Virus record (IMG/VR): IMGVR_UViG_3300044798_000072 | Span: 1 to 54,748 of that record | DNA from: a virus | Length of the DNA: 54,748 nt | Direction: 5' to 3' (one strand) | Shown: positions 2,604 through 47,406 of the stretch, in pieces | Position numbering within the stretch: position 1 is the stretch's first letter | How the letters are laid out: the number at the start of each line of letters is the position of its first letter | Program-made: the position numbers and the translations under genes | The notes under the pieces: model-generated | Databases searched by the model: none | Seen by the model: the letters and a program-made list of their open reading frames with translations, nothing else | Told to the model about the DNA's origin: nothing

Positions 2604-2669
2604 TTTTGGATTTGTTTGGCGGGGCGGTTTTTACTCCACCCCGCCGTTAATTGTTACTGCCGGATTTGA

Positions 2670-8487: not shown

Positions 8488-8529
8488 TCGTTTTCCTTTC
8501 TCTCACGGCGCGTGCCTGAGCTTGGGTTG

Positions 8530-9732: not shown

Positions 9733-9734
9733 AA

Positions 9735-20438: not shown

Positions 20439-21435
20439 CGTATCTTAGGAATTCTTTCGTGTCGGCATCAAATACAGCTTGTCGGCCATCCTTTGTCAAC
20501 CGAATAACTTCGTTGGCTTTGGCGGTCGGTTCAACCGACTCGCTTTCGGCTGCTGCTGGCGTCGTAAAACCAACACCACGGCCATAACGCGCCTGCCACG
20601 CCGCATCTGCTTCTGTTCTGCCCCCGGCGTAATTGGTCAAATCAGGCTTTCCCTGTTCGCCTGAGATAAAGAATTTTCCTCTGTTTTGTGGATAATATGA
20701 TGCTCCCTGTCCCATTGCATTCTGCATTGCATCTCTGGCGGGCATAATTGCATTGGCGTATGGAGCAATTATGGGAACGTCCGCTTCTGTAGATTCGTTG
20801 GTTGCCGTCGAAGGCTCGGCGGGCGGGACAAAGGATGTTCCGGTGCGGCTGAATGGTGTTTGGACTTCGGGCGTAACAGTGGATTGTGCGCTTGAAGAAA
20901 CGTCTCCACGAACGGCTTCTTGATATTTTGCATTCCAGTCTTGCCACTGTCTGTCTGATTCATTCTTTTGTTTTTCCCAATTCGCACGCATAACCGCGTA
21001 ATCCGGGTCGCTTGGTTTCAAGTGCAGAATCGCTTTTTGTGCTGCTGTTGACATGGCTTGCGCTTTCACCATTTGAGAATGCAAAGCAGTTAGGTCGCGT
21101 CTTTCCGTCTTGGATATTTCCGGCATTGAAGCCAGTACCGTCCATTTTTGGAGCAGGGGCGCAAACCGCTTTGTGACCGTCACACCAGTTGGCTCGTCGC
21201 GGGTTAAATCTTTAATGGCGCTTCCGGTTGCCGAATCAAAATCATCGGAGATTTGTTTGAACATTCCCGGCTTCAAGAACTTTTCGGGGTATGTCTCAAT
21301 TATTTTCCGTTTTGCCAGTGCCGGTTTAAGATACAATTCAAGCGAATCAGACTCGTCATAACCCGACGCATCATAACGCGACATGGCCTTGTTCCAGTCC
21401 GCGTCAAACATTGAACTTAAATCTTGGGTGTCCAT
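20431..21435 (-). CDS. Putative internal virion protein
   Basis: 334 residues. N-terminal half is helical and charged (DADWNKAMSRYDASGYDESD, KRKIIETYPEKFLKPGMFKQ). The C-terminal half is disordered, with an RYGRGVGFTTPAA segment and a terminal AVFDADTKEFLRYVE. It overlaps the very large protein gene by 8 bases and lies with the Gln-rich genes. Context suggests an ejection/internal protein. Confidence 0.45.
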   Translation of the reverse strand: MDTQDLSSMFDADWNKAMSRYDASGYDESDSLELYLKPALAKRKIIETYPEKFLKPGMFKQISDDFDSATGSAIKDLTRDEPTGVTVTKRFAPLLQKWTVLASMPEISKTERRDLTALHSQMVKAQAMSTAAQKAILHLKPSDPDYAVMRANWEKQKNESDRQWQDWNAKYQEAVRGDVSSSAQSTVTPEVQTPFSRTGTSFVPPAEPSTATNESTEADVPIIAPYANAIMPARDAMQNAMGQGASYYPQNRGKFFISGEQGKPDLTNYAGGRTEADAAWQARYGRGVGFTTPAAAESESVEPTAKANEVIRLTKDGRQAVFDADTKEFLRYVE

Positions 21436-21436
21436 A

Positions 21437-22018
21437 TCAATACATCGGCGACCATTTTCCCGTGTTCACATAAGACTTAGGGGTTTCACTGGAAGTTTTG
21501 CTGGGAGTTGGCGCTTCCATAGTCAACAAATTAACCGGCCCCGCATTTCCAGCCGGGGTTGTTTGGTAAAACATGGACTTGTCAGAAATGTCACTGTATT
21601 GAGGGTGGGCGGATTTCCATTGCGTGAAGGCGATTCGGTTTAGATAGTCTTTAACGTAGGCATCTGCTGACGAACTGTCTCCCAAGCTGCTCAATAATTG
21701 CAAATAGCCTGGGCTGCTCTGCAATGTCTGTTGCTGTTGTGAATACTTTTGGCCTTGTTCGGATTGTGTCTGCTGTTCTTGCGCCAATTTATTCGCGGCC
21801 AATCTCGCGGCAGTTTGTTCGCCCAATGATTGACCGAACTCGCTCCCTTGCTGGCTCAATTGGGCCTGTTGATATGCCATTTGCTGTGCATATTCATTGG
21901 CTTGTTGCTGCAACTCTTGTTGTGAAAATCCAAGTCCCTGTTGCCATTGGCTCGCTTGTGTGGTTTGCTGGTTTCCAAGCAACCCTTGCAAGTATTGAAG
22001 CATGTCATTGTAATTCAT
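21437..22018 (-). CDS. Gln-rich internal virion protein 1
   Basis: 193 residues, very rich in Gln. The N-terminal 120 residues are helical repeats (FSQQELQQQANEYAQQMAYQ, GSEFGQSLGEQTAARLAANK). The short motif EFGQ(S/N)L is shared with the next upstream gene (22034-22552), pointing to common origin. Such Gln-rich helical proteins sit next to large ejection proteins in short-tailed phages. One base separates it from the next gene. Confidence 0.5.
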   Translation of the reverse strand: MNYNDMLQYLQGLLGNQQTTQASQWQQGLGFSQQELQQQANEYAQQMAYQQAQLSQQGSEFGQSLGEQTAARLAANKLAQEQQTQSEQGQKYSQQQQTLQSSPGYLQLLSSLGDSSSADAYVKDYLNRIAFTQWKSAHPQYSDISDKSMFYQTTPAGNAGPVNLLTMEAPTPSKTSSETPKSYVNTGKWSPMY

Positions 22019-22033
22019 AAATGTTTCTCCATT

Positions 22034-22552
22034 TCACGATTGCCCGCCTGAGTATGTTGGAATCTGCGTCTGGTTGCTGCTGGTAATCTTTTCGCCCAAA
22101 CTAAGAGCTTGCAACATCGCCTGGAACTGTTGGAGTTGTAAATTCTGACCAAATTCAGAACTTTGTTCGCCCAACTGTTGTCCGAATTGGGTGTTTTGCA
22201 GCGATTGACCGGCAGTAGGAACAACCGTGCCGGAGTATCCGCCTATGGTGGAAAGCAAATCCTGCAATCCGGTTTGCTGGCGTTGTTGCGCCTGTTGGCC
22301 ATAAAGGTCGTAACCCCGATTGCGGAGAAAGTCACTGGTTGACCCCACCCCGGAACCCGCCCCGAAATAGGCGTTGGAAGTCCGGGCCGCGCTTGCCGAT
22401 GGCAACCCGGAAAGAAGATTGCTAATAACGCTGGTGGCCTGCCCGCCCAACTTGTCGAATCCCGGCAAGACCTGATTCAGATATGCCGATGTGTCACCCG
22501 GCAATGCAGTTGAAGTCGTTTGGCTCGACCCACCGTAAGATGCTCCTGCCAT
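22034..22552 (-). CDS. Gln-rich internal virion protein 2
   Basis: 172 residues. N-terminal half is Gly/Ser-rich (YFGAGSGVGSTSDFLRNRGY), C-terminal half Gln-rich helical (FGQQLGEQSSEFGQNLQLQQ). It shares the QLGEQxxEFGQxL repeat with 21437-22018. Probably an internal or ejection protein by composition and neighbours. Confidence 0.5.
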   Translation of the reverse strand: MAGASYGGSSQTTSTALPGDTSAYLNQVLPGFDKLGGQATSVISNLLSGLPSASAARTSNAYFGAGSGVGSTSDFLRNRGYDLYGQQAQQRQQTGLQDLLSTIGGYSGTVVPTAGQSLQNTQFGQQLGEQSSEFGQNLQLQQFQAMLQALSLGEKITSSNQTQIPTYSGGQS

Positions 22553-22556
22553 AAAA

Positions 22557-23552
22557 TCAGTATAAACTCCTTATTCTTCGTCCCGACATTGCTACAACCT
22601 GAATGGGCGTAGTCTGGTCGGGAAATTTGTCTCGGTCACGGAAATTCAATTCCCGGATGGCCTTCAAAATAAAAGCCTCGGCAGTCGGGTTATCCTGCGC
22701 CTGTTCCGCTTTGATGGCCTGAATCATAAACGCCAATGCGTCGAAGTCGTCTATCAAAAGAAAATCTCGGTCATTGACCAGTGGAATAAATTCGAGCTTT
22801 ATCAGCGCCTCAATCCTGCGCCAGCAAATCCCATTGGCGTCCGGTCTGCCGTGCGGTGCGTTGTGGATGCAGGAACGGCGATAACGCGGATTGGTTTCAT
22901 TTGGCTGGTATTGCGCCAAGTCAACCACATCAGTTGTTGTCGGGTCATACGAATACAAATAAGCCATCCCGCTTGTTGCTTCGCGGGTAACAGAATCAAT
23001 CTGTGTGACGAGCGTTGCATCCGTTCCGTATGGACTGGCGGCGGTGATGGTCAGTCCGTCAATCCATTGGCCGGTAACTGGGTTTTGTTCTTGTAACGGT
23101 TGCCCGCCGTATTTCTTGCCGTAGATGGTTATTTTCTTTCCGATGTCAGCGAGTTTGACGACATTGTAGCGTATCTGTTTCCCGGTCGTGCCGGTGATGT
23201 CATTGTAACAGGGCGCGGTTCCGGCGTCTTCCAGAACAACATCGGAACGCCATTCAGAATGAACGTGATGCGCCCCCGTGAACCGATACCAGTTATTGAA
23301 AACGTGTCCGGGTTTGTCGTGCTGGAAGCGAACGCCTTCGATTGTGCCGGCCCAATTCGGCCATGTGATTTCGCAACCACGGGTGCAAAATTCAACCACC
23401 TGAGTCGTGCCATACCAGTCACCACGTTTCAGCAACCGGCGAATCGCCGTGTTGACCAACGCAATGAACGCAGCCGAATTCGGACAATTACTTGAGATGT
23501 TCTTGATTGTCTCGTCGTTCTTGGCGTCTGCTAATTGTAGCGTGAAAGGCAT
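22557..23552 (-). CDS. Putative tail/adaptor protein
   Basis: 331 residues. N-terminal helices (PNSAAFIALVNTAIRRLLKR) are followed by a long beta-rich middle with paired aromatics (NNWYRFTGAHHVHSEWRSDV) and a helical C-terminus (FMIQAIKAEQAQDNPTAEAF). The shape resembles head-to-tail adaptor/tubular proteins of short-tailed phages, and the next gene upstream is nozzle-like. A TTAACGATAA motif lies 5 bases before the start. Confidence 0.5.
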   Translation of the reverse strand: MPFTLQLADAKNDETIKNISSNCPNSAAFIALVNTAIRRLLKRGDWYGTTQVVEFCTRGCEITWPNWAGTIEGVRFQHDKPGHVFNNWYRFTGAHHVHSEWRSDVVLEDAGTAPCYNDITGTTGKQIRYNVVKLADIGKKITIYGKKYGGQPLQEQNPVTGQWIDGLTITAASPYGTDATLVTQIDSVTREATSGMAYLYSYDPTTTDVVDLAQYQPNETNPRYRRSCIHNAPHGRPDANGICWRRIEALIKLEFIPLVNDRDFLLIDDFDALAFMIQAIKAEQAQDNPTAEAFILKAIRELNFRDRDKFPDQTTPIQVVAMSGRRIRSLY

Positions 23553-23588
23553 TGCTTTATCGTTAATCCTGTTTCTAGTTCATGTCAA

Positions 23589-26102
23589 CTATGGCGCGGC
23601 GCAAATTGGCCTTGCAAATGGCGCTTCCGGTTCGCTGGTTGCCTGCACTCGCATTCCCATGAACTTTATTGTTCCGGTTACGATTACGCGCAACTGGAAG
23701 AAATAACCAACGCGCATCTGACGTTCGCCCTGAACTTCGCAATCGTCGGATGAAGGCTCGCCCAAACCCATGCGCGGCTTCCATGTCGTCGGGTCAACGG
23801 TGAATTTCCGCCACGTCGTCCAGATGGGATTAAAGTCGGGCCGGTATTGAACTTCGATGTCAACCGTGCCGGAAATATCCTTTGTGTAAATTTCGCCGTC
23901 GGCCAGTTTCGCCAGTTCGTTCAACGGTTTGATGTCCTTGTTGAAAATAACCGGGGTGTCAAAGTTCCAAGAAATTCTATCCGTTCCATTGTCCAATGTT
24001 TGAGGGTCGGCTGAGTATAAATACTCCACCAACTCAATCAGGTTGGTGGTTTTATTTCTAGTGAAAGCAAAGGCGCGGCGGGTTCCGTTGACCTTCCCGC
24101 AAACAACCTGCAATATATTTAAATCCGTCCATGCGCCCTCATAAACCGCTGGCAGTTTTGTTCTCAGATTGCTGACTGTATCGAAACTCATTGCCACCAA
24201 CCCGGAATGAACGACGCCGCTTGCAGTTTGGGCCGGGTCATAGACGTGCAAATCCCGGTTGTCGAAGGGAATTGCGCTGCCAACCGATAAAAGAGTCTGG
24301 TCATCGTCATCAAAGATGTAACTAACTTCCCGGCTGATGGGAGTATTCCCCCCGCCAACGCTTCCGCTGGAAACAAAATCTCGCCGCGCCTGAATCAGCG
24401 AACCAAGCCCGTCATATTCTCTGAATATAATGTCGCTATTGTCAATAATGGTTGAGTCCTGTCCAAGCGGCCCCTTTCCGACCAAAGACGCCGGAAGAAT
24501 CAGTTGAACCGCTGTCCAGGTTGAACGGTCGGCGGGAAGATTGACCGAAAACATGGAATTGGCTGTCCCAATTTGCAGCGGGCCTTGACCCAAAGAATTG
24601 TCCAGCACGGCGGGAAATATCATAGCCGTGATGATGTCGCCCGAAGTTGGAAGCCGGAATGTTCCGCTGCCCGGCAAGAAGGTTTGTTCAGTGGTTTTTA
24701 GAACACTGTCCCGATAATCATTTGCCACAGTCCCCGCCCCGCCACCAACAATATCGCCCGCCCCAAAAGTTATTCCGTCAATTCCAGAATACCAGACCCG
24801 GCCTTGTCCGTATGCGCCCATGCGACCGGCAGGCAATTCAGGCACAGACAGAATATCCCCGGCGTGTGAACCTGTCGGCATGGCCGCGCCAGCATCTGCT
24901 GTGTCAGTAAGATTTTGCAAGTAAAGTGTCGTGCTTCCGCCCGAAGGCGCAACTGACGCGACAAGGGTGTATCGGTCTGTTCCTATAAACGCCGTTTGAT
25001 TGTTTGTGTTGGTATAAATCCGGTCAATCGTGACTGTCACAGTGCTTCCCACCGCCGGCACGGTGAAAACAGCGGTTGTATTACCGATAATAAAGTTAAT
25101 TCCGCCACCGGTGGCTTGAATTGAAGAACCGGCAATAACTGTTACGCCATAAACACCATAAGTAAGCGGCTTGATGTCAATGGTTGGAGGCGTAGTATTC
25201 GTGTATATTCCAAGCACCTTGAAATTATCCGAGCCAACCGTGTAAGCGCCCATCCCGACATAAACATGACAACCATCAATCGTAATAACATCATTTATAG
25301 ACAAACCACCCACGGCAGTAACTTCCACTCCGTTGATTGCTTGAAAGTTCGGACCACCCGCCTTGGTGGTGACAATGCTGCCAATCACACTCGGATTTAC
25401 GATGATTTGTGAACCTATTGGCATAACCGCTCCCGGTGTTCCGGTTACGTTGGTTAAAATGACAGTGTTGCCACCACCTATACTTTGAATCGTCTCGTAA
25501 AACTCACTGTTAAATATAACCGGCACATTAAATGGCCCGATGTAGTTAGAAACCAGGGTTACAGTTATGACTTCGCCGATAACTCTTGTGGCGGGAAAAA
25601 GGGCCGCACTGGTATTCACTCCAAGAGGAACCGAATCGCCATAAGACCGGCGCGAAGTTGTTCCATCGTAAAAGATAGGCAATGCTCCGCTGCCATCATT
25701 CACAATCAGCCACTTTTCCGCCTGCAACATCCATGCCTTTGCAACCGTCGCGCTGTTCAAATCGCCAACCACACTGATGTCGGCCACGGTGAAACTGCCG
25801 CCTATTTCAGTGAATGAAAACAAATGCCCTGAAATCTGTGCAATCAATTGTTCCGTTCCGTAATCTGGCCGGTAATATCCCCCGCCCTGAAACAGACCGC
25901 CCTCAACCGTTGCTTGGTCGGTTGGACTGGCGAAAATAAAGTTGCGCTTCATCTTCGGCGGGCGATGGGAAATATAAGCGCCTCGGACGGTCGCGTTTTC
26001 GGCGCGAGCTAGCTGGTTTTTCGGAAGCAGTAAAGGTTCTATCCCGCCGTTGACTCCGGCATCAAACGCGGCAAGAAAGTCGAGATAGGTTTTCGCGGCC
26101 AC
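23589..26102 (-). CDS. Putative tail nozzle (tail tubular B-like) protein
   Basis: 837 residues, almost entirely beta (repeats such as VTVTIDRIYTNTNNQTAFIG). The N-terminus GVNGGIEPLLLPKNQLARAE plus ENATVRGAYISHRPPK has the pattern NxxxRxGxxxxRP of nozzle proteins of T7-like tails, which begin with a loop over the adaptor. Residues 125-150 (WLIVNDGSGALPIFYDG) also fit. It would close the tail tube until DNA release. It lies at the upstream end of the late operon. Confidence 0.6.
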   Translation of the reverse strand: MAAKTYLDFLAAFDAGVNGGIEPLLLPKNQLARAENATVRGAYISHRPPKMKRNFIFASPTDQATVEGGLFQGGGYYRPDYGTEQLIAQISGHLFSFTEIGGSFTVADISVVGDLNSATVAKAWMLQAEKWLIVNDGSGALPIFYDGTTSRRSYGDSVPLGVNTSAALFPATRVIGEVITVTLVSNYIGPFNVPVIFNSEFYETIQSIGGGNTVILTNVTGTPGAVMPIGSQIIVNPSVIGSIVTTKAGGPNFQAINGVEVTAVGGLSINDVITIDGCHVYVGMGAYTVGSDNFKVLGIYTNTTPPTIDIKPLTYGVYGVTVIAGSSIQATGGGINFIIGNTTAVFTVPAVGSTVTVTIDRIYTNTNNQTAFIGTDRYTLVASVAPSGGSTTLYLQNLTDTADAGAAMPTGSHAGDILSVPELPAGRMGAYGQGRVWYSGIDGITFGAGDIVGGGAGTVANDYRDSVLKTTEQTFLPGSGTFRLPTSGDIITAMIFPAVLDNSLGQGPLQIGTANSMFSVNLPADRSTWTAVQLILPASLVGKGPLGQDSTIIDNSDIIFREYDGLGSLIQARRDFVSSGSVGGGNTPISREVSYIFDDDDQTLLSVGSAIPFDNRDLHVYDPAQTASGVVHSGLVAMSFDTVSNLRTKLPAVYEGAWTDLNILQVVCGKVNGTRRAFAFTRNKTTNLIELVEYLYSADPQTLDNGTDRISWNFDTPVIFNKDIKPLNELAKLADGEIYTKDISGTVDIEVQYRPDFNPIWTTWRKFTVDPTTWKPRMGLGEPSSDDCEVQGERQMRVGYFFQLRVIVTGTIKFMGMRVQATSEPEAPFARPICAAP

Positions 26103-33103: not shown

Positions 33104-33321
33104 ACACATTTTTTATCTGGTGGCATAGACGGCTTGCCGCTCACCACTTCGCGCTGTCAAGGCAAGGATGGAGTATGATGCATGAAGGAAGCTGGCATTA
33201 CGCATGGATGGAATGGCATCTTGACCAAGTAAAACGACTTTCCGCGCCGGAGCGCAAAGTGCCTGCAACGGCTCAGGAGAGCGCGGTTAGGCAGCGAGAC
33301 GGCGCGGGATTGAATTTATGA
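33100..33321 (+). CDS. Small Trp/His-rich early protein
   Basis: 73 residues from MNTFFIWWHRRLAAHHFALS. Start chosen for the ATGA overlap with the preceding stop. Rich in Trp and His (WWHRR, SWHYAWMEWHLDQVKRL). Unknown. Confidence 0.45.
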   Translation: MNTFFIWWHRRLAAHHFALSRQGWSMMHEGSWHYAWMEWHLDQVKRLSAPERKVPATAQESAVRQRDGAGLNL

Positions 33322-33512
33322 ACGACCAAGACAGAATCAAAGTGGGTGACAAGGTGCATGTGGACTTCAATAACACACAAACCACACTCTGCCATGAGGC
33401 TGAGGTATTGTGGTCGCCGACCAACATGGGCGAATCGTGGATATTCAAAGACACAACCACCGGATTAGTCCACTACGTTTCCGAGGGATGCACAATCTCA
33501 AAATTGCGGTGA
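33318..33512 (+). CDS. Small SH3-like beta protein
   Basis: 64 residues. VGDKVHVDFNN and AEVLWSP then SWIFKDTTTG suggest a five-strand SH3-like barrel. Start overlaps previous stop. Unknown role. Confidence 0.45.
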   Translation: MNDQDRIKVGDKVHVDFNNTQTTLCHEAEVLWSPTNMGESWIFKDTTTGLVHYVSEGCTISKLR

Positions 33513-33524: not shown

Positions 33525-34592
33525 ATGAACGAACCAAAAACAATCGAAATGGAAATCGTCAGTCAAACCGACGACAAGCTTGTAAAATTCGCAACCAAGA
33601 CGGGACTTGAAAAGGGCAATAATATACTTGACTCACATGCGGCAAAAGGTTTAATCTTTCCGAAACCTAAACGAAAGAAAAAACCCGTGACCGTTATAAT
33701 TGGAATAATTTGCGAATTTGGAATCGTGCTGGCAAGCGATAGTCAAACCACGTTTGGAGATAACTCTAAAAGGTGTGATGCTGAAAAAATCCGCGTGGTA
33801 AAATTCAAAGAAAGCGACGACAAAGTATTGGTAGCCCAATCAGGGTCAGTTGAAACATCAAGCCGAGCAATAGACGTAATGGAACAATTGGCGGCTGACC
33901 GAAAATTGGAAAACGAAGAAACGGTTATCAGCACTGTCCAGAAAGCCATGCATAAAGTAAGAACAGAAATACGACATCAAAACTTCGATTGCAGCGCGGA
34001 AGAATTCGACAAAATCATAACCAATCACGGATTGGACTGTTCTTTGATGACGGCGAATTTTTTCGACAAGAAGCCTTTTATTCACACATTTAACTTTCAG
34101 CGCGGAACAACTGAAAACTGCAAAACATTTTACGAATCCACCGGATGCGGCTCTGCGCTGTCCAATTATATTTTAAGCGAATTATGTTCACCAAAAATGG
34201 ATTCTCGGTTGGGACAAGCCATTGCAGTTTATGTCGTAGATAAAGCGATCAAACACGTTGCCTACTGCGATAGGCCAATACGATTGGCGACCATTTATCC
34301 GTGGGAGTCGTCATTCTTTCCTTCACCATCAAATTTGCTTGGCTCTCTACTTGATGAATCTAAATCAACAGCGCCGCGCATATTTTCATCTGCTCCGCCC
34401 TTATTTATGGACAATGTTAAGATAGAAGACGCCGAAGAAGTCGAAAAAATCATAAATAAAGTGACTAAAATTGATGAGGAAACAAAGCCGCAGAGAATTA
34501 AAAAGCTACGCGAAGCATTGATTTCTTACGCTGACACAATGAATGACTATTCCCAAGCAGCCTTAACAAAGAAACAAGCACCAAATGAATAA
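33525..34592 (+). CDS. Proteasome beta/HslV-like Ntn hydrolase
   Basis: 355 residues. After a 55-residue N-terminal extension ending KRKKKPV comes TVIIGIICEFGIVLASDSQT. Taking Thr56 as T1, Asp72 is D17 and Lys88 is K33, the three canonical residues of proteasome beta subunits and HslV. VAQSGSVETSSRAID follows where beta subunits have their conserved small-residue loop. The extension fits a propeptide removed to free the Thr nucleophile. The last 130 residues have no clear homology. It overlaps the transposase start by 8 bases. Either a phage peptidase or a subunit that interferes with host proteolysis. Confidence 0.65.
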   Translation: MNEPKTIEMEIVSQTDDKLVKFATKTGLEKGNNILDSHAAKGLIFPKPKRKKKPVTVIIGIICEFGIVLASDSQTTFGDNSKRCDAEKIRVVKFKESDDKVLVAQSGSVETSSRAIDVMEQLAADRKLENEETVISTVQKAMHKVRTEIRHQNFDCSAEEFDKIITNHGLDCSLMTANFFDKKPFIHTFNFQRGTTENCKTFYESTGCGSALSNYILSELCSPKMDSRLGQAIAVYVVDKAIKHVAYCDRPIRLATIYPWESSFFPSPSNLLGSLLDESKSTAPRIFSSAPPLFMDNVKIEDAEEVEKIINKVTKIDEETKPQRIKKLREALISYADTMNDYSQAALTKKQAPNE

Positions 34593-36371: not shown

Positions 36372-37019
36372 ATGAACCGAATTTTCTACGACCTCGAAAC
36401 CGAGGGATTGCCAGAAGCCGACCTTGCCAAGCTCATGCCGGAATTCGCGGCGGGCGCAAACCTGAAAGACCCGGCCAAGATTGTCGCCGCCATCGCTGAC
36501 AAGAAACAGGACTGGCTGGACGGCGCGGCATTGAAAGCCATCACCGGCAAGATTGTGGCAGTGACGATTGCTTGGGACGACACTGAGCCGACAATGTTTG
36601 CCAACGACCCCGACGGCGAAATTGGTTTAATCAAGATTGTTTTGCGTGAACTGAAACGGATGATTTCGGTTGGAGGCATGGCTTACGCTTGGAACGGCCA
36701 CGGCTTTGACCTACCATTTCTTTGTCAGCGGGCGGCGGTTCACAACATCCAAGCCTTTCGTGACCTGACCGTGAATGTCCGGGGCAGGTTCTATTGGCAC
36801 GAATCGCTAATTGACCCAAAACTTGTCTGGTCAAATTACTCACCCGACCATACCGGAACCAGTCTGAAATCTGTTGCGCTTGCATTGGGTGTTGGTGAAA
36901 AAATTGGAAGCGGCAAGGACTTCGCCAAACTGCTCAAGGAAAATCCAGCCGAGGCTACACGCTACGCGCTGGCCGACATTACTTTGATGCGTGGCATAAT
37001 AAACCGAATGGGAATATGA
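36372..37019 (+). CDS. DnaQ/PolB-like 3'-5' exonuclease
   Basis: 215 residues. MNRIFYDLETEGLPEADLAK gives Exo I (D-x-E). YAWNGHGFDLPFLCQRA gives Exo II (N-x-x-x-F-D). ATRYALADITLMRGI supplies the last Asp (Exo III-like). The centre has GKIVAVTIAWDD. This is an RNase H-fold exonuclease trimming DNA 3' ends, used in replication or recombination. It is the last ordinary phage gene before the cassette-like array. Confidence 0.7.
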   Translation: MNRIFYDLETEGLPEADLAKLMPEFAAGANLKDPAKIVAAIADKKQDWLDGAALKAITGKIVAVTIAWDDTEPTMFANDPDGEIGLIKIVLRELKRMISVGGMAYAWNGHGFDLPFLCQRAAVHNIQAFRDLTVNVRGRFYWHESLIDPKLVWSNYSPDHTGTSLKSVALALGVGEKIGSGKDFAKLLKENPAEATRYALADITLMRGIINRMGI

Positions 37020-37079: not shown

Positions 37080-37178
37080 ATGAAGAAACATCTTGTCACT
37101 GCAAAACGCGCTGTGAAACGACAAGCCGCTGCCGGAACTGGAGTGCGTAGCTCCAGTTCTGTGCAGCGCCCTTGTTAG
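37080..37178 (+). CDS. Small basic ORF running through site 0
   Basis: 32 residues, MKKHLVTAKRAVKRQAAAGT ..., with an A-rich leader. The stop TAG lies in the GTTAGGC of site 0. Basic, no known domain. It may be a remnant cassette ORF. Confidence 0.3.
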   Translation: MKKHLVTAKRAVKRQAAAGTGVRSSSSVQRPC

Positions 37179-37180
37179 GC
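37113..37180. other. attC-like site 0 (left edge of array)
   Basis: GTTAGGC at 37174-37180. Inner perfect hairpin GAACTGGAG/CTCCAGTTC (37135-37143, 37151-37159), extended by GCTGC (37127-37131) against GCAGC (37163-37167). The left end is GTGAAAC, a poor match to RYYYAAC. Confidence 0.7.
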
Positions 37181-37201
37181 CACTCGCAACGAAATAAAAA
37201 T

Positions 37202-37459
37202 ATGAACATAACATTCGATAAACTGACGCTCGAAATAAACCGAGAGGAGGCATACGCGCTCTACTCGACAATCAAACATGGTCTTGAGGACAGAATCAAA
37301 GACCACTGGCACAACCATCCAGACTCATACGAGAAACTGGAATCTCAACGACTGCACATGATGCGTGAACTTGCCAGATTCACGGGCAACGACTTTAACT
37401 ATGACTCCGCCGAGCTAAAAAGGCTGCTGACGGAATACCAGAAACCTAAAGTGGCCTAA
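37202..37459 (+). CDS. Cassette unit 1 protein, unknown
   Basis: 85 residues, MNITFDKLTLEINREEAYAL ... YDSAELKRLLTEYQKPKVA. Helical, charged, well formed. The leader AATAAAAATATG is identical to that of the Lar-like ORF at 40183. The stop TAA lies inside the GTGGCCTAAC site end. Start at 37202 preferred over an upstream TTG inside the junction. No recognised family. Confidence 0.6.
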   Translation: MNITFDKLTLEINREEAYALYSTIKHGLEDRIKDHWHNHPDSYEKLESQRLHMMRELARFTGNDFNYDSAELKRLLTEYQKPKVA

Positions 37460-37577
37460 CGCCGCGCTATGCCGCGACTCTGGAAACGAGCGTGGAGCGC
37501 AAAAACCGGAATAAAATTATGAGCAAAACAACGAACGTAAGACGCCAAGAGTCGTTGGCATCAGCAAGAGGTTCTAC
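37451..37577. other. attC-like site 1
   Basis: Left end GTGGCCTAAC (37451-37460), right end GTTCTAC (37571-37577). Arms GCTATGCCGCGACTCTGG (37466-37483) and CCAAGAGTCGTTGGCATCAG plus C (37545-37565) pair over about 18 bases with extra bases in the right arm. Length 127. Confidence 0.8.
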
Positions 37578-37761
37578 AGCTTCGTGCGACCTGCGAAGCC
37601 CACTAGCAAAAGCGCGTGACGCATTTCTGGCGAGCGAGGAAGGCGAGAAGCTGACGAATCCAGGCATACTAAGAAGCCGTGACCTGCGCCAATATCTCGA
37701 AAATCGAATCGAACTCGCCTACCTCGCGGGCGTAGCCGATGCCAAAAAGCTAAAGCTGTAG
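37519..37761 (+). CDS. Cassette unit 2 protein, reads through site 1
   Basis: 80 residues. The ATG lies in the loop of site 1 (leader GGAATAAAATT). Residues 1 to about 18 come from the site (ending SLASARGS); the cassette-proper part contains EEGEKLTNPGILRSRDLRQY and AYLAGVADAKKLKL, helical and charged. The stop TAG is in the site end GCTGTAGAAC. The LASAxGSTA stretch is shared with 40183-40656 because both pass through related sites. Confidence 0.5.
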   Translation: MSKTTNVRRQESLASARGSTASCDLRSPLAKARDAFLASEEGEKLTNPGILRSRDLRQYLENRIELAYLAGVADAKKLKL

Positions 37762-37889
37762 AACGACCGACTTGCGCCGCAGCCACGGATAACGGCTGAC
37801 GGCTCCGAAAAGGAAAAAATATGAGAGAAGAAAAAGACCAATCGAAAACTGAAAGCGTAGTGGCTGTTGGCTCGAAGGAGTTGTTAGCG
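37755..37889. other. attC-like site 2
   Basis: Left end GCTGTAGAAC (37755-37764), right end GTTAGCG (37883-37889). Arms CTTGCGCCGCAGCCAC (37771-37786) and GTGGCTGTTGGCTCGAAG (37860-37877). Length 135. Confidence 0.75.
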
Positions 37890-38042
37890 ATGGAACAATT
37901 ATACGCGAAGCTCAAACACCGAGAGCACGAACAAAGAGTAAAAGCCGTCGAAGCCGTGAACCGTGCCGAAACATACCAAGACGCTTCAATAGAAGTGGAC
38001 TTCACGATGGACAAAATCAAGAAAATGCTCACAAGCAGCTAA
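37821..38042 (+). CDS. Cassette unit 3 protein, coiled-coil
   Basis: 73 residues. ATG in the loop of site 2 with leader AAAAGGAAAAAAT. After the junction: AMEQLYAKLKHREHEQRVKA ... IEVDFTMDKIKKMLTSS, a helical, Glu/Lys-rich protein. The stop TAA is in the site end AGCTAAC. Unknown. Confidence 0.5.
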   Translation: MREEKDQSKTESVVAVGSKELLAMEQLYAKLKHREHEQRVKAVEAVNRAETYQDASIEVDFTMDKIKKMLTSS

Positions 38043-38126
38043 CGCAGAGTTCAGGAACGCCGCACGCAAGGCGTCCGACTCTGAAGGCAGCGTCCAATAG
38101 GCGTTTCCTGCAACGATTTGTTGGGC
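38037..38126. other. attC-like site 3
   Basis: Left end AGCTAAC (38037-38043), right end GTTGGGC (38120-38126). Arms GTTCAGGAACGCC (38049-38061) and GGCGTTTCCTGCAAC (38100-38114) pair completely except for two extra bases in the right arm. Length 90. Confidence 0.8.
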
Positions 38127-38148
38127 AGCAAAATTGAGATATACAAAA

Positions 38149-38856
38149 ATGAAAAAGACACTTGGCGAACTTATCGAACCCGGATTTAGCCACTATCGAA
38201 GCATCGGCGAACTGGCGCGCACGCTCCAATTCCTGATGTCCACGGCGCACACATTCCGCGACCCAGGCCGCTGGGGAACTTCCGGCCCGCAAGAATATCT
38301 GTGCGCCTACGGCGGATGCGTGAACTGCGACACCCAGCCGTGGCACAGTGGCCGGATCGTCTCAACAAATCCCCATGTGGTCGAGACAACCACATGGCAG
38401 CAAAACCAAGACAGCATCCGCGACTGCATCCTCGACGCGCTCTGCTCACGCTATCCGGCGGAACTGCGCTGGCGGAAGCGGCACAAAATCAGTCTCGACA
38501 CGCTGCTGAAATTCCCGATGGCTTATCAGAATCAGGACAACGAAAAAAAGGTGTGGGAGCAACCGATGGGGCTTGGACTCGGCGGGACATTCGTGCCATG
38601 CGTCGAACCGATACTATTCTGCCGACGCGGAAACCTGCCCGCAAAACGCCGAATGGATCGCAACTGGTGGGGGTGGCCGCGTGGACGGCACAGCCAAAAA
38701 CCAGAAGCGTTTCAGACGATGGTGGAGTCAGTAAGTCCCGGCCCATACTTGGAAATGTTTGCTCGACGCAAGCGGGAAGGCTGGGCGGCGTGGGGCAATG
38801 AAATAACCAGTGACCTAAAAATGCAGAACATTGGCGCTGAGGCGCGCGACCTATGA
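38149..38856 (+). CDS. Cassette unit 4: chimeric protein with MT-A70-like C-terminal fragment
   Basis: 235 residues from ATG 38149 (leader GATATACAAAA). The C-terminal 85 residues match MT-A70 adenine methyltransferases: FVPCVEPILFCRRG, GWPRGRHSQKPEAFQTMVES and PGPYLEMFARRKREGWAAWG. The catalytic DPPW motif and SAM half are absent; the first 150 residues (LARTLQFLMSTAHTFRDPGR; GGCVNCDTQPWHSGRI) are unrelated and unrecognised. So it cannot be a normal methyltransferase. Either a recombined fusion or a protein reusing the DNA-contact part. Confidence 0.6.
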   Translation: MKKTLGELIEPGFSHYRSIGELARTLQFLMSTAHTFRDPGRWGTSGPQEYLCAYGGCVNCDTQPWHSGRIVSTNPHVVETTTWQQNQDSIRDCILDALCSRYPAELRWRKRHKISLDTLLKFPMAYQNQDNEKKVWEQPMGLGLGGTFVPCVEPILFCRRGNLPAKRRMDRNWWGWPRGRHSQKPEAFQTMVESVSPGPYLEMFARRKREGWAAWGNEITSDLKMQNIGAEARDL

Positions 38857-38926
38857 CAACCGCAAACGAAAATGCTCCCGGCAAACCTGAAGGCGTAATC
38901 ACGTCGCCTCCAGCAACTTGTTCGGT
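38823..38926. other. attC-like site 4 (weak left end)
   Basis: Right end GTTCGGT (38920-38926). Arms GCTGAGGCG (38836-38844) and CGCCTCCAGC (38905-38914) pair with one extra base. The left end GCAGAAC (38823-38829) does not match the start of unit 4. Confidence 0.55.
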
Positions 38927-39101
38927 GGCTTGGTGGATCGTATTGAGGCCACCAGAAAAGTGGGCGCGCGGCGAATTCAGCCACAGTCCGATGCCAATAG
39001 CCGCATTCATAAGTGAACGGATGGCGAAGGAATGGATAGCGTCCGCAGCGCACAGATACCGTGATATAATTCAGCCACCGAATGAGAAAGTTCAGATATG
39101 A
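38853..39101 (+). CDS. Cassette unit 5 protein, unknown
   Basis: 82 residues. ATG overlaps the stop of the unit-4 gene; residues 1-24 are encoded by site 4. Alternative start GTG 38925, just after the junction (VAWWIVLRPPEKWARGEFSH). C-terminal helix FISERMAKEWIASAAHRYRD. The site end GCCACCGAAT lies inside the gene, 18 bases before its stop. Not recognised. Confidence 0.4.
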   Translation: MTTANENAPGKPEGVITSPPATCSVAWWIVLRPPEKWARGEFSHSPMPIAAFISERMAKEWIASAAHRYRDIIQPPNEKVQI

Positions 39102-39207
39102 GCGACCAAAATCACAAGCACTTTTATATTTACGGGCGATGCCAATGCGGGCAAGTCCAACCGAACTACAACGCGCAGAGCGAATTATCTGCAACGCCTT
39201 GTTCGGC
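39074..39207. other. attC-like site 5
   Basis: Left end GCCACCGAAT (39074-39083; last base differs from AAC), right end GTTCGGC (39201-39207). Arms GTTCAGATA (39090-39098) and TATCTGCAAC (39186-39195) with one extra base. Length 134. Confidence 0.7.
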
Positions 39208-39343
39208 GTGGGTGACGGCGATCTGGCGTGAATCGTTTCGTTGTGAACACACCTCGCTATTGGTGTTTTGTAGCTGGTTAACAGCAATGGGAAAGCTGCA
39301 AGCATCGGGCTGGCCTGTGCATTTTGAGGGCCGTGAACAATGA
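39098..39343 (+). CDS. Cassette unit 6 protein, unknown
   Basis: 81 residues, starting in the loop of site 5 with an ATGA overlap. N-terminal RCQCGQV comes from the site; the unit-proper part is VTAIWRESFRCEHTSLLVFC ... SGWPVHFEGREQ from GTG 39212. The stop TGA abuts the site end ACGCCGAAC. Weakly protein-like. Confidence 0.35.
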   Translation: MSDQNHKHFYIYGRCQCGQVQPNYNAQSELSATPCSAWVTAIWRESFRCEHTSLLVFCSWLTAMGKLQASGWPVHFEGREQ

Positions 39344-39476
39344 CGCCGAACGCCAAGCTCACTGACCGGAGCGCCAAATGACAATTTCGCCACACGCACC
39401 CCGCAACCAGGCACCGCGACCGGCGCTGTCTGAACTGGAAGCGCAAGCTCCGGTTCAGTGCAGCGCCGGGTTAGCC
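39343..39476. other. attC-like site 6
   Basis: Left end ACGCCGAAC (39343-39351), right end GTTAGCC (39470-39476). Arms GCTCACTGACCGGAGC (39357-39372) and GCTCCGGTTCAGTGCAGC (39447-39464) pair with two extra bases in the right arm. A second, competing left arm (GGCGCTGTCTGAACTGGA, from 39422) lies inside the loop and resembles site 0, as if two sites were fused. Length 134. Confidence 0.8.
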
Positions 39477-39491
39477 TGCATTTCGACGGCG

Positions 39492-39704
39492 ATGGTGGCG
39501 AAACATAAAGGCTGCCCGGAGCTAAAACCGTGTAAGCACTGCGGCTACTCGCCGGTGAGGATTGACACGACATTTGCGAACGGCTCGAAAGCCTTCGCCT
39601 TCGGATGCCCGAATGAGGAATGCAACCCGCGAGGCCGGCATTCGGTCTTGATGCCATCGAAGCGGGAAGCAGCAGCCGCATGGAATTACGCCAATGCAGG
39701 CTAA
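39492..39704 (+). CDS. Cassette unit 7: Lar-like zinc-ribbon protein
   Basis: 70 residues from ATG 39492 (MVAKHKGCPELKPCKHCGYS). The pattern LKPCKHCGYSP, FGCPNEECN and REAAAAWNYAN follows Lar-type small zinc ribbons (LxPCPFCG ... C ... EAixxWN), first known as restriction-alleviation proteins. The stop TAA lies in the site end AATGCAGGCTAAC. A longer in-frame start at 39378 runs through site 6. Confidence 0.65.
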   Translation: MVAKHKGCPELKPCKHCGYSPVRIDTTFANGSKAFAFGCPNEECNPRGRHSVLMPSKREAAAAWNYANAG

Positions 39705-39826
39705 CGATCAAGCTCACGCGCAGCCACTTGTGAGCGAGACAGGAAAATGAAACCAACAACCAAATTACTGCGACGCACGACAAAACCGAGGGGCGAGTGG
39801 CTGTTGCGTGCAGCGCGGTGTTAGAC
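39693..39826. other. attC-like site 7
   Basis: Left end AATGCAGGCTAAC (39693-39705), right end GTTAGAC (39820-39826). Arms CACGCGCAGCCACT (39715-39728) and GAGTGGCTGTTGCGTG (39795-39810). Length 134. Confidence 0.8.
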
Positions 39827-39831
39827 GACCT

Positions 39832-40104
39832 ATGACGAGAGAAATCATAATACAACCAGTGCTCAACGGCTACGTGTGTGTCGTTGGATGTCAGCGCGTC
39901 GCGTTCACTGACAAGCAAACGATGCTGGGGCAACTCAGCGAATACCTCGACAAGCCCGATGAAGTGGAACAACGCTACATCGAACGTGCCGTGAACAAAA
40001 TGCCAGCGGTGCCGCAACCGTGCAGGCCAACCGACTGCTGTGAGTCAAGCGCGCCCACGCCGTCCGTAACGATGGGACGTGTGGAAGAACGCCGGCCACG
40101 ATAA
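39832..40104 (+). CDS. Cassette unit 8 protein, unknown
   Basis: 90 residues from ATG 39832, 12 bases after the junction. MTREIIIQPVLNGYVCVVGC then DKQTMLGQLSEYLDKPDEVE and QRYIERAVNKMPAV, strand-rich then helical; C-terminal 30 residues low complexity. The first 65 residues are well formed. Site end GTCGTCTAAC is 31 bases after the stop. Unknown function. Confidence 0.5.
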   Translation: MTREIIIQPVLNGYVCVVGCQRVAFTDKQTMLGQLSEYLDKPDEVEQRYIERAVNKMPAVPQPCRPTDCCESSAPTPSVTMGRVEERRPR

Positions 40105-40135
40105 CACAAATGACGACCAGGCTCGCAAGGGTCTG

Positions 40136-40430
40136 GTCGTCTAACGACGGAGCTATGCCGCGCCGTCAAACTAAATAAAAATATGGAAAATCCAAAACTT
40201 CTAGCCTGCCCGTTCTGTGGCAGCGAAGTGACGCTCAAAGATACCGGCAATGACGCCGGATACCGATGGCTCGTGCGCTGCGATAATGCGCTCTGCATGG
40301 TCAACCCATTCGCACGGGCAAAAAGCCTAGATGCGACAATGGCAATCTGGAACCAAAGGGCAGGCGGTCGAAAACCAGCGCCGCCCGAAACCGAGACCGT
40401 AAAGGCGTTGGCATCAGCGACTGGTTCTAC
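40136..40430. other. attC-like site 8, with a gene in its loop
   Basis: Left end GTCGTCTAAC (40136-40145), right end GTTCTAC (40424-40430). Arms GCTATGCCGCGCC (40152-40164) and GGCGTTGGCATCAGC (40404-40418), nearly the same as site 1. Total 295 bases because the loop carries a Lar-like coding start. Confidence 0.65.
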
Positions 40431-40656
40431 CGCTGGCTACGACTGGACTGTGATGTGCGATAAATTGCCACCGCACTGCGTCAGGGTGATGACCTATTCA
40501 CCACAACCAATCGGTGCGCGGCAGAATCTTACGGACGGAGTAGCCATCCTATGCTGGAACGCTCACGAACAACGATGGTGCGATGACAACGGGGAGACAT
40601 CCATGTTCAAACCGACAGCCTGGTGGCCAATAACCATCCCAACTAAAAAGCGGTAG
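40183..40656 (+). CDS. Cassette unit 9: Lar-like zinc ribbon fused to a DUF551-like domain
   Basis: 157 residues. Residues 1-70: KLLACPFCGSEVTLKDTGND, CDNALC, ATMAIWNQRAGG, a Lar-type ribbon. Residues 75-85 come from the arm of site 8 (ALASATGSTAG). Residues 86-157: YDWTVMCDKLPPHCVRVMTY ... AILCWNAHEQRWCDDNGETS, FKPTAWWPI, a DUF551-like pattern (W-x-V-x-D-x-LP ... TxWxPL). The junction G^TTCTACC falls in the linker. Stop TAG is in the site end GCGGTAGAAC. Two cassette proteins joined across a recombination site. Confidence 0.6.
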   Translation: MENPKLLACPFCGSEVTLKDTGNDAGYRWLVRCDNALCMVNPFARAKSLDATMAIWNQRAGGRKPAPPETETVKALASATGSTAGYDWTVMCDKLPPHCVRVMTYSPQPIGARQNLTDGVAILCWNAHEQRWCDDNGETSMFKPTAWWPITIPTKKR

Positions 40657-40746
40657 AACACCCAAGCTGAGCGATGACGCCACTACCAACATCCGATTGC
40701 AAACAAGAGCGCCAAGGCGTCATTCGCTCCAGCGCCCTTGTTAGGC
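40650..40746. other. attC-like site 9
   Basis: Left end GCGGTAGAAC (40650-40659), right end GTTAGGC (40740-40746). Arms GCTGAGCGATGACGCC (40666-40681) and GGCGTCATTCGCTCCAGC (40716-40733) pair throughout with two extra bases in the right arm. Length 97. On the minus strand it begins GCCTAACAAG, the classical attC start. Confidence 0.85.
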
Positions 40747-41513
40747 ATCTTGTCCTATTTTCAGGAGGTCTTGTCTCTTGGGCGACAGCAAAGCGCGTGG
40801 TAGCAGCCCACGGCACGGATGGCGTAGTGCTGCTGTTCGCTGACACGATGATGGAAGATGAAGACCTGTATCGCTTCATAGTCCAAGCCGCCGAAAATGT
40901 CGGCGTGCCGCTGACTCGAATCGCGGACGGTCGCAACCCGTGGGAAGTCATGCGCGATGAACGAATCATCGGCGGCGGAATGACTGGCGCTGATCCATGC
41001 AGCAAAATACTGAAACGCCAACTGCTCGACCGATGGACGCGGGAAAACTGCCAGCCGGAAACGGTTTCTCATGTGGGACTCGACTGGACAGAGCATCACC
41101 GGCTAGACCGGATGCGCGTGAGGATGCCGGAACGCAAATGGTCTGCGCCGATGACAGAAGCTCCCTACATGACGAAGCCGCAAATGATGGCGTGGCTGAA
41201 ATCGGAAGGCATCGAACCTCCGAGACTCTACAAAATGGGATTCCCGCACAACAACTGCGGCGGCTTCTGCATCAAAGCCGGTCAAGCTCACTTCGAGCTA
41301 CTGCTGCGGATGATGCCAGACCGCTACGCTTACCACGAACAGAAGGAAGAAGAAATGAGACAGATGCTCGGAAAAGACTATGCCGTGCTGCGCGAACAGC
41401 GCGACGGAAACAAATTCCCGCTCACGCTGCGGAAGCTGCGCGAGCGGATTCAGTCACAAGGCTCATTCGACCAATTCGAGTGGGGCGGCTGTGGCTGCGC
41501 GATAGATGCCTAA
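40674..41513 (+). CDS. Cassette unit 10: PP-loop (PAPS-reductase-like) protein
   Basis: 279 residues. LVLFSGGLVSWATAKRVVAA contains the PP-loop SGGxxS that binds the adenylate/pyrophosphate; LFADTMMEDEDLYRF follows as in PAPS reductases. Conserved Cys: GADPCSKILKRQLLDRW, FPHNNCGGFCIKAG and terminal GGCGCAIDA, possibly an iron-sulfur site. Such proteins are common phage cargo and some act in sulfur modification. No in-frame start lies between the junction and the PP-loop, so the ATG 40674 in site 9 is used. Stop TAA is in the site end GATGCCTAAC. Confidence 0.65.
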   Translation: MTPLPTSDCKQERQGVIRSSALVRHLVLFSGGLVSWATAKRVVAAHGTDGVVLLFADTMMEDEDLYRFIVQAAENVGVPLTRIADGRNPWEVMRDERIIGGGMTGADPCSKILKRQLLDRWTRENCQPETVSHVGLDWTEHHRLDRMRVRMPERKWSAPMTEAPYMTKPQMMAWLKSEGIEPPRLYKMGFPHNNCGGFCIKAGQAHFELLLRMMPDRYAYHEQKEEEMRQMLGKDYAVLREQRDGNKFPLTLRKLRERIQSQGSFDQFEWGGCGCAIDA

Positions 41514-41606
41514 CGTATGAGCCAAGCCACAGCCAACCAGAAACCGTCAACCGCGATAGCGGATGCTGGACGCCCGATGGCTGTTGGCTTCGGCGATTTG
41601 TTCGGC
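41505..41606. other. attC-like site 10
   Basis: Left end GATGCCTAAC (41505-41514), right end GTTCGGC (41600-41606). Arms GCCAAGCCACAGCC (41521-41534) and GGCTGTTGGCTTCGGC (41579-41594) with two extra bases in the right arm. Length 102. Confidence 0.8.
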
Positions 41607-41861
41607 ATCGTGCTGTCGGTCCGCGAGTCTGCAATAGTGAAACTTCTCTCGGAGGGCATGACCGTAAAAGAGATCGCCCTCAATCTCAAAATCTCGAATA
41701 AGACCGTCGAGTTCCACTCCCTGCGAGCGCGCCGGAAAATCGGTAATCTATCCATTGCTGTGATGACTCGGTTCGCAATCATAAATGGACTGAGTGAACT
41801 TACGATGCCGAACAGAGAGATAACCAACACAAAATCCGACTCTAAATCCACAAATGCCTAG
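41517..41861 (+). CDS. Cassette unit 11: LuxR-type helix-turn-helix protein
   Basis: 114 residues in the full frame, but the first 28 are encoded by site 10. More likely starts: ATG 41577 or GTG 41610. LSVRESAIVKLLSEGMTVKE, IALNLKISNKTVEFHSLRAR and TRFAIINGL match the GerE/LuxR DNA-binding domain (LTxRExxVLxLxxxGxSxKEIAxxLxxSxxTVxxH). No receiver or ligand domain. The site end GATGCCGAAC (41804-41813) lies inside the C-terminal tail. Confidence 0.65.
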   Translation: MSQATANQKPSTAIADAGRPMAVGFGDLFGIVLSVRESAIVKLLSEGMTVKEIALNLKISNKTVEFHSLRARRKIGNLSIAVMTRFAIINGLSELTMPNREITNTKSDSKSTNA

Positions 41862-42138
41862 ACGTTATACAGATAGGGATAGGCAACTTGCAACGCACGC
41901 AAGGGCTAGAATACGAATATCCGCGCCTGATTTCAGCAGCGCGTCTCGTCGGAAAGTTCGTATGCCACGCGGCAGGATCAGGTTCACGCTTACGCTGGAA
42001 GATCACCAGATTGGGGACAAGATGAGATTGGGCCTGTTCGCGCTTCCGTGGCGGGGAAGATTTGTATCAACCGACGGCCAGCAGTTGAGCGCGGTCAAGA
42101 TTATATCAGCGGTCAACACCGTTCTTTGCCATGATTGA
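41854..42138 (+). CDS. Early protein, first phage gene after the array
   Basis: 94 residues, MPRRYTDRDRQLATHARARI, Arg-rich, then FTLTLEDHQIGDKMRLGLFA and a C-terminal VKIISAVNTVLCHD. It overlaps the LuxR-type ORF by 8 bases. Not recognised. Basic N-terminus suggests nucleic-acid binding. Confidence 0.45.
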   Translation: MPRRYTDRDRQLATHARARIRISAPDFSSASRRKVRMPRGRIRFTLTLEDHQIGDKMRLGLFALPWRGRFVSTDGQQLSAVKIISAVNTVLCHD

Positions 42139-46756: not shown

Positions 46757-47167
46757 ATGCGAACAGCCTTGATTATATCGGCGCTTGCCATCGCCCTGCC
46801 CTGCTTCGGCCAGAGCAGCATGGAGCGGAGGCTGGTGTGCCTTGCGATGGTGGAAACTGGTTGCAATGACATGGCTATTGGGCCAAGCGGAGAGCGGGGG
46901 AGATACCAAGAAACGCTTGCGGTTTTCAAAGAGTTCAACCCAACAAACTGCTGGCAGTTTTATTACGGACTAACCAATGCCGACTTCGCCAGATTGCAGG
47001 CCGAGGGAGTGATGCTAAACCGGCTGCATCGCTATGGGCGCGTTGCAACTGACACCGAGTTTTACCTTCTTTGGCATCGCCCAGCACGTCCAAACCACCC
47101 AAAACCAGCCGAGAAAGACCGCGCCTTGCGGTTCCAAAACCTATGCCTATCGAAAACAGCCAACTAA
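46757..47167 (+). CDS. Exported lysozyme/transglycosylase-like protein
   Basis: 136 residues. Signal peptide MRTALIISALAIALPCFGQS. Then ERRLVCLAMVETGCNDMAIG and PSGERGRYQETLAVFKEF, matching lytic transglycosylase/lysozyme pattern E-S/T-G-xxN-xAIG-xxGE-xGxxQ with Glu about residue 33 as acid. The domain is shorter than a full transglycosylase. Peptidoglycan cleavage in the periplasm is inferred. Confidence 0.55.
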   Translation: MRTALIISALAIALPCFGQSSMERRLVCLAMVETGCNDMAIGPSGERGRYQETLAVFKEFNPTNCWQFYYGLTNADFARLQAEGVMLNRLHRYGRVATDTEFYLLWHRPARPNHPKPAEKDRALRFQNLCLSKTAN

Positions 47168-47406
47168 GCGATAAAATAGCATCAAAACGAGCAGAGAGAC
47201 TTTCAACGTGTCCTTCATCGTGGAGGGGCATCCTAAGACGTTCTTGGCTCGGAAAGAGTCGAAAAACCGCTATCGCCGCGTTTTGTGGTGAGTGCTTAGG
47301 ATTCGACCGACAAGGAATAGCCGATTGTACCGGATTTGCCTGTTCACTCTACCATTTCAGGCCATTCCAGAAAAACGCTGGGAAAAAACCGCCCGCAAAA
47401 CCATAA
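47143..47406 (+). CDS. Small Cys-cluster phage protein
   Basis: 87 residues from MPIENSQLSDKIASKRAERL. KTAIAAFCGECLGFDRQGIA and DCTGFACSLYHFRPFQ follow a four-Cys pattern (KxIRxxCxxC...C....CxLxPFR) seen in many small phage proteins. Likely zinc. Overlaps the preceding gene by 25 bases. Confidence 0.55.
   Translation: MPIENSQLSDKIASKRAERLSTCPSSWRGILRRSWLGKSRKTAIAAFCGECLGFDRQGIADCTGFACSLYHFRPFQKNAGKKPPAKP

Follow-up and report, generated by a model that had tools for sequence, protein, structure and literature searches.

Integron cassettes in bacteria and phages

Integrons are the best-known device by which bacteria capture genes, and to our knowledge phage-borne cassettes had previously been seen only as scattered cases. 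The subject here is an array of such cassettes at positions 37113-41813 of IMG/VR virus record IMGVR_UViG_3300044798_000072, the whole 54,748 bp of which was analysed and is referred to as the window (also labelled G000; other labels beginning with G or L denote further viral contigs). Clusters of attC sites lacking an integron integrase (CALINs) have been described in virulent phages, namely Tetrasphaera phage TJE1, Polaribacter phage P12002L and Pseudoalteromonas phage PH101, and five of six phage attC sites tested recombined with attI1 through IntI1 (Qi et al., 2023, PMC9892861). That a phage should carry an array, the point of novelty in an earlier sequence-only reading of this locus, was thus already known. 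Integron integrases select one strand of the attC site; in sedentary chromosomal integrons (SCIs) excision is held down by the location of this strand on the leading-strand template, and placing it on the lagging-strand template gives more excision (PMC5371416, PMC11023631).

The reading favored below, with a probability of roughly 70%, is that the window belongs to a probable Verrucomicrobiota phage with an integrase-less array of mirrored cassettes, in which open reading frame (ORF) and attC site point in opposite directions, and that these cassettes would be shuffled by the host integron integrase (IntI) acting in trans and carry mostly anti-restriction cargo.

An integrase-less array of cassettes

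The stretch 37113-41813 is a CALIN within a phage genome, a class for which at least two attC sites inside about 4 kb suffice. It comprises eleven short units arranged head to tail (Table 1). A search of the whole window for tyrosine recombinases (PF00589) gave no match and thus no intI, so that the locus is not a complete integron, which would combine intI, attI and the cassette promoter (Pc). Units running from GTT to AAC with self-complementary ends were sought by an exact scan, with 300 dinucleotide shuffles as the null. Eight units of the array were recovered (cassettes 1, 2 and 6 to 11, whose end lengths in Table 1 include the G of R'), against a shuffle mean of 0.24 (maximum 2); the 13-bp ends of the unit at 39470 read GTTAGCCTGCATT/AATGCAGGCTAAC, as noted earlier. 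Two weaker cases are the unit at 38920, in which a terminal C is changed to T, and the unit at 37883, whose ends were read directly from the sequence. The unit at 38120-38829 is the sole exception among the eleven, and the earlier claim of ten units with complementary ends differing from unit to unit is upheld. Over the rest of the window the pattern occurs at chance level only, and chain scores computed over whole contigs reached 16, 15 and 12 in array segments against a shuffled-genome maximum of 7.

Scanning for attC sites gave a concordant picture. A position-specific scoring matrix (PSSM) trained solely on 67 chromosomal (bacterial) attC sites placed its six best plus-strand matches in the window all within the array (35.2, 26.8, 22.8, 11.6, 2.2 and 1.9), the next best in the window scoring -6.4, which bears out the attC-like sites of the sequence-only reading. 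Stray minus-strand matches at 47105-47240 (15.6, 7.1) and 8418-8529 (7.7) were judged to be background. The ten consecutive attC sites of the array all have the same polarity. The sites show R''/R' boxes together with L''/L' arms, one of which is longer by a base, and at all window sites evaluated this bulged pairing took one orientation. Folding each site as a single strand, the check proposed with the original reading, gave a mixed result: z values were strong (z <= -2; -2.0 to -4.6) at 4 of 12 and weak at the rest, because most attC sites have long variable loops, and whole-site z distinguishes such long-loop sites poorly from background. Rfam has no attC family, and its search gave chance-level matches only.

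Cassette turnover, host and recombination machinery

Relatives of the window in IMG/VR (DnaB 79%, exonuclease 78%, terminase 39-78%) also carry arrays, either at the same site (L006/L007, G011) or beside the replicative helicase (G001, G003). Thirteen cassettes are present in G013, and G353, an unrelated phage that encodes a terminase, portal and capsid of its own, is array-carrying as well. Long blocks of G001 and G003 are 98.6-100% identical, yet the cassettes between two shared stretches are wholly different. The window and G011 have little DNA in common beyond one cassette, an attC site and the right-flank gene; this cassette, encoding a 3'-phosphoadenosine 5'-phosphosulfate (PAPS) reductase-like protein, is 92% identical over 790 bp, against about 43% for the terminase, and the block of identity ends at the cassette borders. 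Similarly, one cassette is 94% identical between G011 and G012, whose backbones are 65-74% identical, and attC sites are found in common without their bodies (G001, G002 and G012, 87-98%). From these comparisons it appears that array content changes more quickly than the phages carrying it and that bodies and attC sites reassort, which supports the movement of cassettes between phages. The suggestion that the array is a means of gene exchange between integrons and phages is supported by the cassettes shared from phage to phage and by the resemblance of the attC sites to those of Verrucomicrobiota; in the 320 genomes of one Verrucomicrobiota order compared, no cassette body was found.

The machinery of this movement may lie in the host. 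No tyrosine recombinase was found in the window phage, G001-G008 or G011-G014. A search of 84,980 genomes for this type of attC, made with a single 20-base pattern, gave 43 loci, 25 of them Verrucomicrobiota by title, and 9 of 15 Verrucomicrobiota genomes examined encode an integron integrase that scores above the curated cut-off. Compared with 320 genomes of one Verrucomicrobiota order, the window array gave attC-sized matches only; terminase relatives occur in two genomes of that order, both on short contigs. A Verrucomicrobiota host is therefore likely, and the lack of a phage tyrosine recombinase, the likeness of the attC sites and the frequency of IntI together make mobilization in trans by a host IntI likely. 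Neither megablast with the region nor tblastn with the terminase or with a tail-region protein gave a match among 50,697 phage records, and aligning the terminase against genome contigs gave none either.

Cassettes could instead be exchanged by homologous or annealing recombination at similar attC sites during co-infection, IntI having no current part. The phages have no integrase gene, their attC sites are 70-98% alike, and attC sites and bodies move separately, all of which speaks for such a process. However, the blocks common to different phages stop at R boxes or no more than about 15-20 bp away, not randomly inside attC, and unit-specific end complementarity is retained in nearly all units, in keeping with continued selection on excised circles or folded sites. 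Exchange without IntI is on balance unlikely, although it retains appreciable weight.

Mirrored polarity and start codons within attC

In a classical attC site the extra base is found in the L'' arm, which adjoins the 3' end of the ORF. Polarity was taken here from the attC arms with a bacteria-only profile, and strands in the strict set were called automatically. Canonical and inverted cassettes of this set numbered 50 and 9 in chromosomal arrays against 9 and 18 in phage arrays (p 7e-6), and 54 and 9 against 20 and 47 in a wider set; counted per contig, the ratio of canonical to inverted was 16:2 against 4:15, and the bias was significant. The automatic calls in the window were 0 canonical and 6 inverted. 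Once protein matches and the operon had been used to set the strands by hand, nine of ten judged cassettes were inverted, the tenth being ambiguous by ORF length. Window cassettes thus depart from the classical arrangement, the polarity of the ORF not being that of the attC site. An attC of the aadA1 type, itself confirmed in plasmids, was called canonical, as was phage TJE1; the plasmid class 1 control consisted of an attC remnant only, so that the canonical controls are this attC itself and TJE1. Because polarity is unreliable for single sites (G001 was called R by arm pairing and L by PSSM), the profile and sums over arrays were used. Genes carrying Pfam domains, namely the PAPS-like gene, three C5 methylases and Lar, confirm the cassette strand.

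The position of start codons follows the same division. An in-frame ATG in the upstream attC was found in the coding frame of 27 of 40 inverted cassettes versus 20 of 80 for the two remaining frames, while canonical cassettes show no excess (7 of 63 versus 20 of 126). Strands were automatic in this test, and the frame control matters since an ATG in an attC arm is partly a property of the attC sequence in that orientation. The attC-borne ATG of inverted cassettes usually lies 45-80 nucleotides before R'. Within the body (window strands set by hand) the first ATG is found mostly at codons 2-9 after R' in canonical cassettes and often beyond codon 20 in inverted ones. The C5-methylase cassettes of G353, G360 and G016 have a catalytic domain that begins just past R' and a first body ATG only at codons 103, 94 and 115, respectively. 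In the PAPS-like cassette 10, R' reads GTT-AGG-CAT at the position where homologues read ATG-AAR-CAT; the R' box has thus taken the place of the start codon, and the ATG at 40674 in attC9 is the sole usable start. Units 1, 4, 7 and 8 have a start within the cassette, which is absent in unit 10 and probably absent in units 2, 3 and 6. Judged by these sequence features, the phage cassettes are not simply carried host cassettes, as their ORFs oppose the attC polarity and mostly appear to start in attC.

Were this nevertheless an ordinary phage CALIN of passively carried host cassettes, the orientation bias would be an artefact of sampling or of ORF calling. Phage arrays of that kind, with methylase cargo, are known, TJE1 is canonical, and G+C-rich DNA has long open frames on both strands, which makes strand calls noisy. 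Such an artefact would not, however, account for a polarity derived from arms alone, with a bacteria-trained profile, that predicts start-codon position in bacterial and phage cassettes, nor for the agreement of the Pfam-domain genes or the significance of the bias per contig; passive carriage is accordingly regarded as quite unlikely. Inverted cassettes might also be ordinary bodies flipped between their own R'/R'' inverted repeats and retained where the operon needs the other strand. Bodies and attC sites do reassort independently, so that both boxes serve as borders, and most arrays are located in phage operons that run in the same direction. Flipping a canonical body should, though, leave it with an ATG a few codons past the box, whereas inverted bodies are mostly without one and start in attC, and the cassettes of G353 and G351 run against their neighbors. 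Flipping is considered improbable.

Proposed mechanism

In the favored reading, a host integron integrase would act in trans on folded attC sites, and cassettes would be gained, lost and shuffled as a result. In the mirrored class the attC site stands 5' of its gene with a polarity opposite to the ORF, which usually runs from an ATG in attC through the L' and R' boxes and the body to a stop codon (TAA or TAG) at the R'' box. Recombination would then use the coding strand of the attC site, and this site plus the ORF that follows it would form the gene-preserving unit; a crossover at the stop-codon end of the ORF would move the two as a whole. Were replication to pass through the phage operon in the direction of the operon itself, the selected strand would serve as lagging template.

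Several observations weigh against this reading. The attC sites that flank the PAPS-like body in the window are unrelated, on either side, to those that flank it in G011, and in L222 its downstream attC is different again. A simple unit of attC plus ORF would have retained one of these neighbors, so that crossovers at both boxes, or else homologous recombination, must take part as well. Cassette bodies were absent from the 320 host-order genomes, which gave attC matches only. Canonical arrays exist on the viral contigs G017 and G365; a single genome, EW11, contributes 6 of the 17 bacterial loci; and the strand of most cassettes was called by ORF length. Finally, the cassette ORFs of G353 and G351 are opposed to the flanking phage genes. 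Co-orientation with the phage operon, tried as the cause of mirroring, is for that reason at most a partial explanation and cannot hold everywhere.

A wider proposal, put forward tentatively and at slightly less than even odds, is that several unrelated lineages of Verrucomicrobiota phages maintain a cassette pool of their own, with mirrored cassettes, a 5' attC supplying the start and a coding strand that recombines. Anti-restriction genes would be traded through the host integrase as a virus-adapted branch of the integrons, and bodies could be joined in frame to differing attC-encoded N-termini. A large and changing pool across phage lineages would put viruses inside the integron network and would let them trade anti-restriction genes cassette by cassette. 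The mirrored design makes it testable whether the needs of the carrier set orientation and strand choice in attC recombination, and it would make one and the same sequence both the site of recombination and the place where translation of the mobile gene begins. Under the wider proposal, mirrored cassettes inserted at a host attI would be antisense to Pc and mostly silent, but expressed in phages.

Phage context, cargo and features of the array

The window is a tailed phage by its large terminase (phrog_2, E 4e-8, divergent), DnaB (5e-73) and RusA (8e-7). An array inside a phage with early genes on both sides, as the initial reading described it, was confirmed from relatives: L006/L007 have cassettes directly 3' of the same exonuclease gene that forms the left flank, and the G011 array directly precedes a homologue of the window gene at 41854-42138, after which the window has an ORF of unknown family and then DnaB and RusA. 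Arrays beside the same neighbors in independent contigs make a chimeric assembly unlikely. At the right end (41802-41870; G011 7600-7540) the AAC of R'' is fused straight to homologous phage DNA without L'/R', a structure shared by these two phages at a terminase identity of only about 43%. That a bacterial integron was wrongly assembled into a phage contig, conceivable since IMG/VR records are metagenome contigs, is largely refuted by contigs from other samples with arrays beside the same left or right neighbors and by cargo that includes genes occurring as ordinary phage genes.

Cargo of the window comprises a DNA methyltransferase (phrog_359), two Lar-like proteins, a PAPS-reductase-like protein, a protein with a LuxR-type helix-turn-helix (HTH) and small proteins of unknown function; C5 cytosine methylase cassettes recur in G016, G353 and G360, where all of them start inside attC. 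Such cargo fits a predicted, mostly anti-restriction role, as was noted for phage CALINs (Qi et al., 2023, PMC9892861). The Lar ORF that begins in attC8 runs in frame into cassette 9, giving a 157-amino acid (aa) fusion and possibly a fused cassette, and the attC8 region may be one 292-bp site or two partial sites.

Table 1. Features of the cassette array and its flanks. Cassettes begin at the G of R'; attC polarity is scored as a log-likelihood ratio (LLR).
Feature	Position	Strand	Remarks
3'-5' exonuclease gene, left flank	36372..37019	+	phrog_17/403; 78% aa relative; adjoins arrays also in L006/L007
Leftmost attC-like site	37095..37180	+	R'' degenerate, R' GTTAGGC intact; fold z -4.6; part 37097-37170 81% identical to G013 attC
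Cassette 1, unknown function	37174..37460	+	ORF 37172-37459; 11-bp ends
attC1	37454..37577	+	R''/R' boxes; polarity LLR 28
Cassette 2	37571..37764	+	ORF 37492-37761 begins upstream in attC1; 12-bp ends
attC2	37758..37889	+	Contains ATG (37821) of next ORF; polarity LLR 25
Cassette 3	37883..38044	+	ORF 37821-38042, open from attC2; 6-bp ends GTTAGC/GCTAAC
attC3	38038..38126	+	79% identical to G011 attC; polarity LLR 34
Cassette 4, MT-A70-like DNA methyltransferase	38120..38829	+	ORF 38134-38856; ends not complementary; phrog_359 E 2e-19; MT-A70 6e-5, just under cut-off
attC4	38823..38926	+	Scan score 26.8; polarity LLR 57
Cassette 5	38920..39083	+	ORF 38853-39101; 10-bp ends
attC5	39077..39207	+	Contains ATG (39098) of next ORF; polarity LLR 50
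Cassette 6	39201..39351	+	ORF 39098-39343; 9-bp ends
attC6	39345..39476	+	73% identical to G013 attC over 134 bp; polarity LLR 64
Cassette 7, Lar-like zinc protein (restriction alleviation family)	39470..39705	+	13-bp ends; TIGR03655 E 2.5e-4; phrog_599 1.6e-5
attC7	39699..39826	+	Scan score 22.8
Cassette 8	39820..40145	+	ORF 39808-40104; 11-bp ends
attC8 region	40139..40430	+	Unusually long, 292 bp; contains start of Lar gene 40183-40656 (PF14354 E 4e-8)
Cassette 9	40424..40659	+	In frame with Lar ORF 40183-40656; 11-bp ends
attC9	40653..40746	+	Contains sole usable start (ATG 40674) of PAPS-like gene; LLR only 4; fold z -2.6
Cassette 10, PAPS-reductase-like (PP-loop) gene	40740..41514	+	775 bp; 11-bp ends; common to G011, L222
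attC10	41508..41606	+	Closest to chromosomal Verrucomicrobiota attC (75-82%, genomes of one order); scan score 35.2
Cassette 11, LuxR-type HTH	41600..41813	+	ORF 41517-41861, GerE E 3e-13; 12-bp ends; R'' abuts phage DNA
Conserved 94-aa right-flank phage gene	41854..42138	+	70% aa homologue at G011 7548-7267, also array-adjacent
Copies of ~80-120 bp repeat	window 33212-33322; L002 1214-1329; L005 7339-7420 and 6176-6207; L006 931-1015		

Other features were observed in these genomes. A stretch of about 80-120 bp in the early-gene region recurs in relatives, on either strand and sometimes twice per contig, and the window ORF at 33525-34592, also in the early region, has a proteasome/HslV-type peptidase domain (PF00227, 1e-7). 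The terminase genes of G001 (7392-10019) and G012 (1171-3783) are split by an in-frame extra of about 1 kb, as expected of an intein, in frames of 916 and 933 aa, respectively. Viral contig G365 carries about 14 cassettes at 18358-25047; one stretch of them is canonical and possibly of different origin.

Comparison with known systems

The mirrored class with attC-borne starts, the size of the array and cassette exchange among phage lineages have no prior description in the literature that was searchable, outside which most subscription papers lie, and their novelty is accordingly unproven. The phage CALINs of Qi et al. (2023) resemble the window in being integrase-less attC arrays with methyltransferase cargo; TJE1, however, has three attC sites of canonical polarity, compared with eleven units and inverted ORFs that appear to start in attC, and the window differs from all of them in having Verrucomicrobiota-type attC sites and cassettes common to several phage lineages. 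SCIs of Verrucomicrobiota (Opitutaceae EW11, the Limisphaerales metagenome-assembled genome palsa_1443 and Chthoniobacteraceae) include sites 75-82% identical to attC10 and share with the window the R and L boxes and the single extra base in the L arm, but most of their cassettes have canonical polarity and an ATG shortly past R', and IntI is present in 9 of 15 genomes as opposed to none in the phages. Mycobacteriophage PAPS-reductase-like proteins are 48% identical to the product of window cassette 10 over 92% of its length; the window gene, unlike theirs, is a cassette in which the R' box stands in place of the start codon. Cassettes deficient in a translation initiation region that are served by ORF-11 in attI1 (PMC8876359) offer a parallel in that translation is aided by sequence outside the body. 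In that case, coupling proceeds from a short ORF in attI, whereas in the window an in-frame start within attC would provide the protein with an attC-encoded N-terminus.

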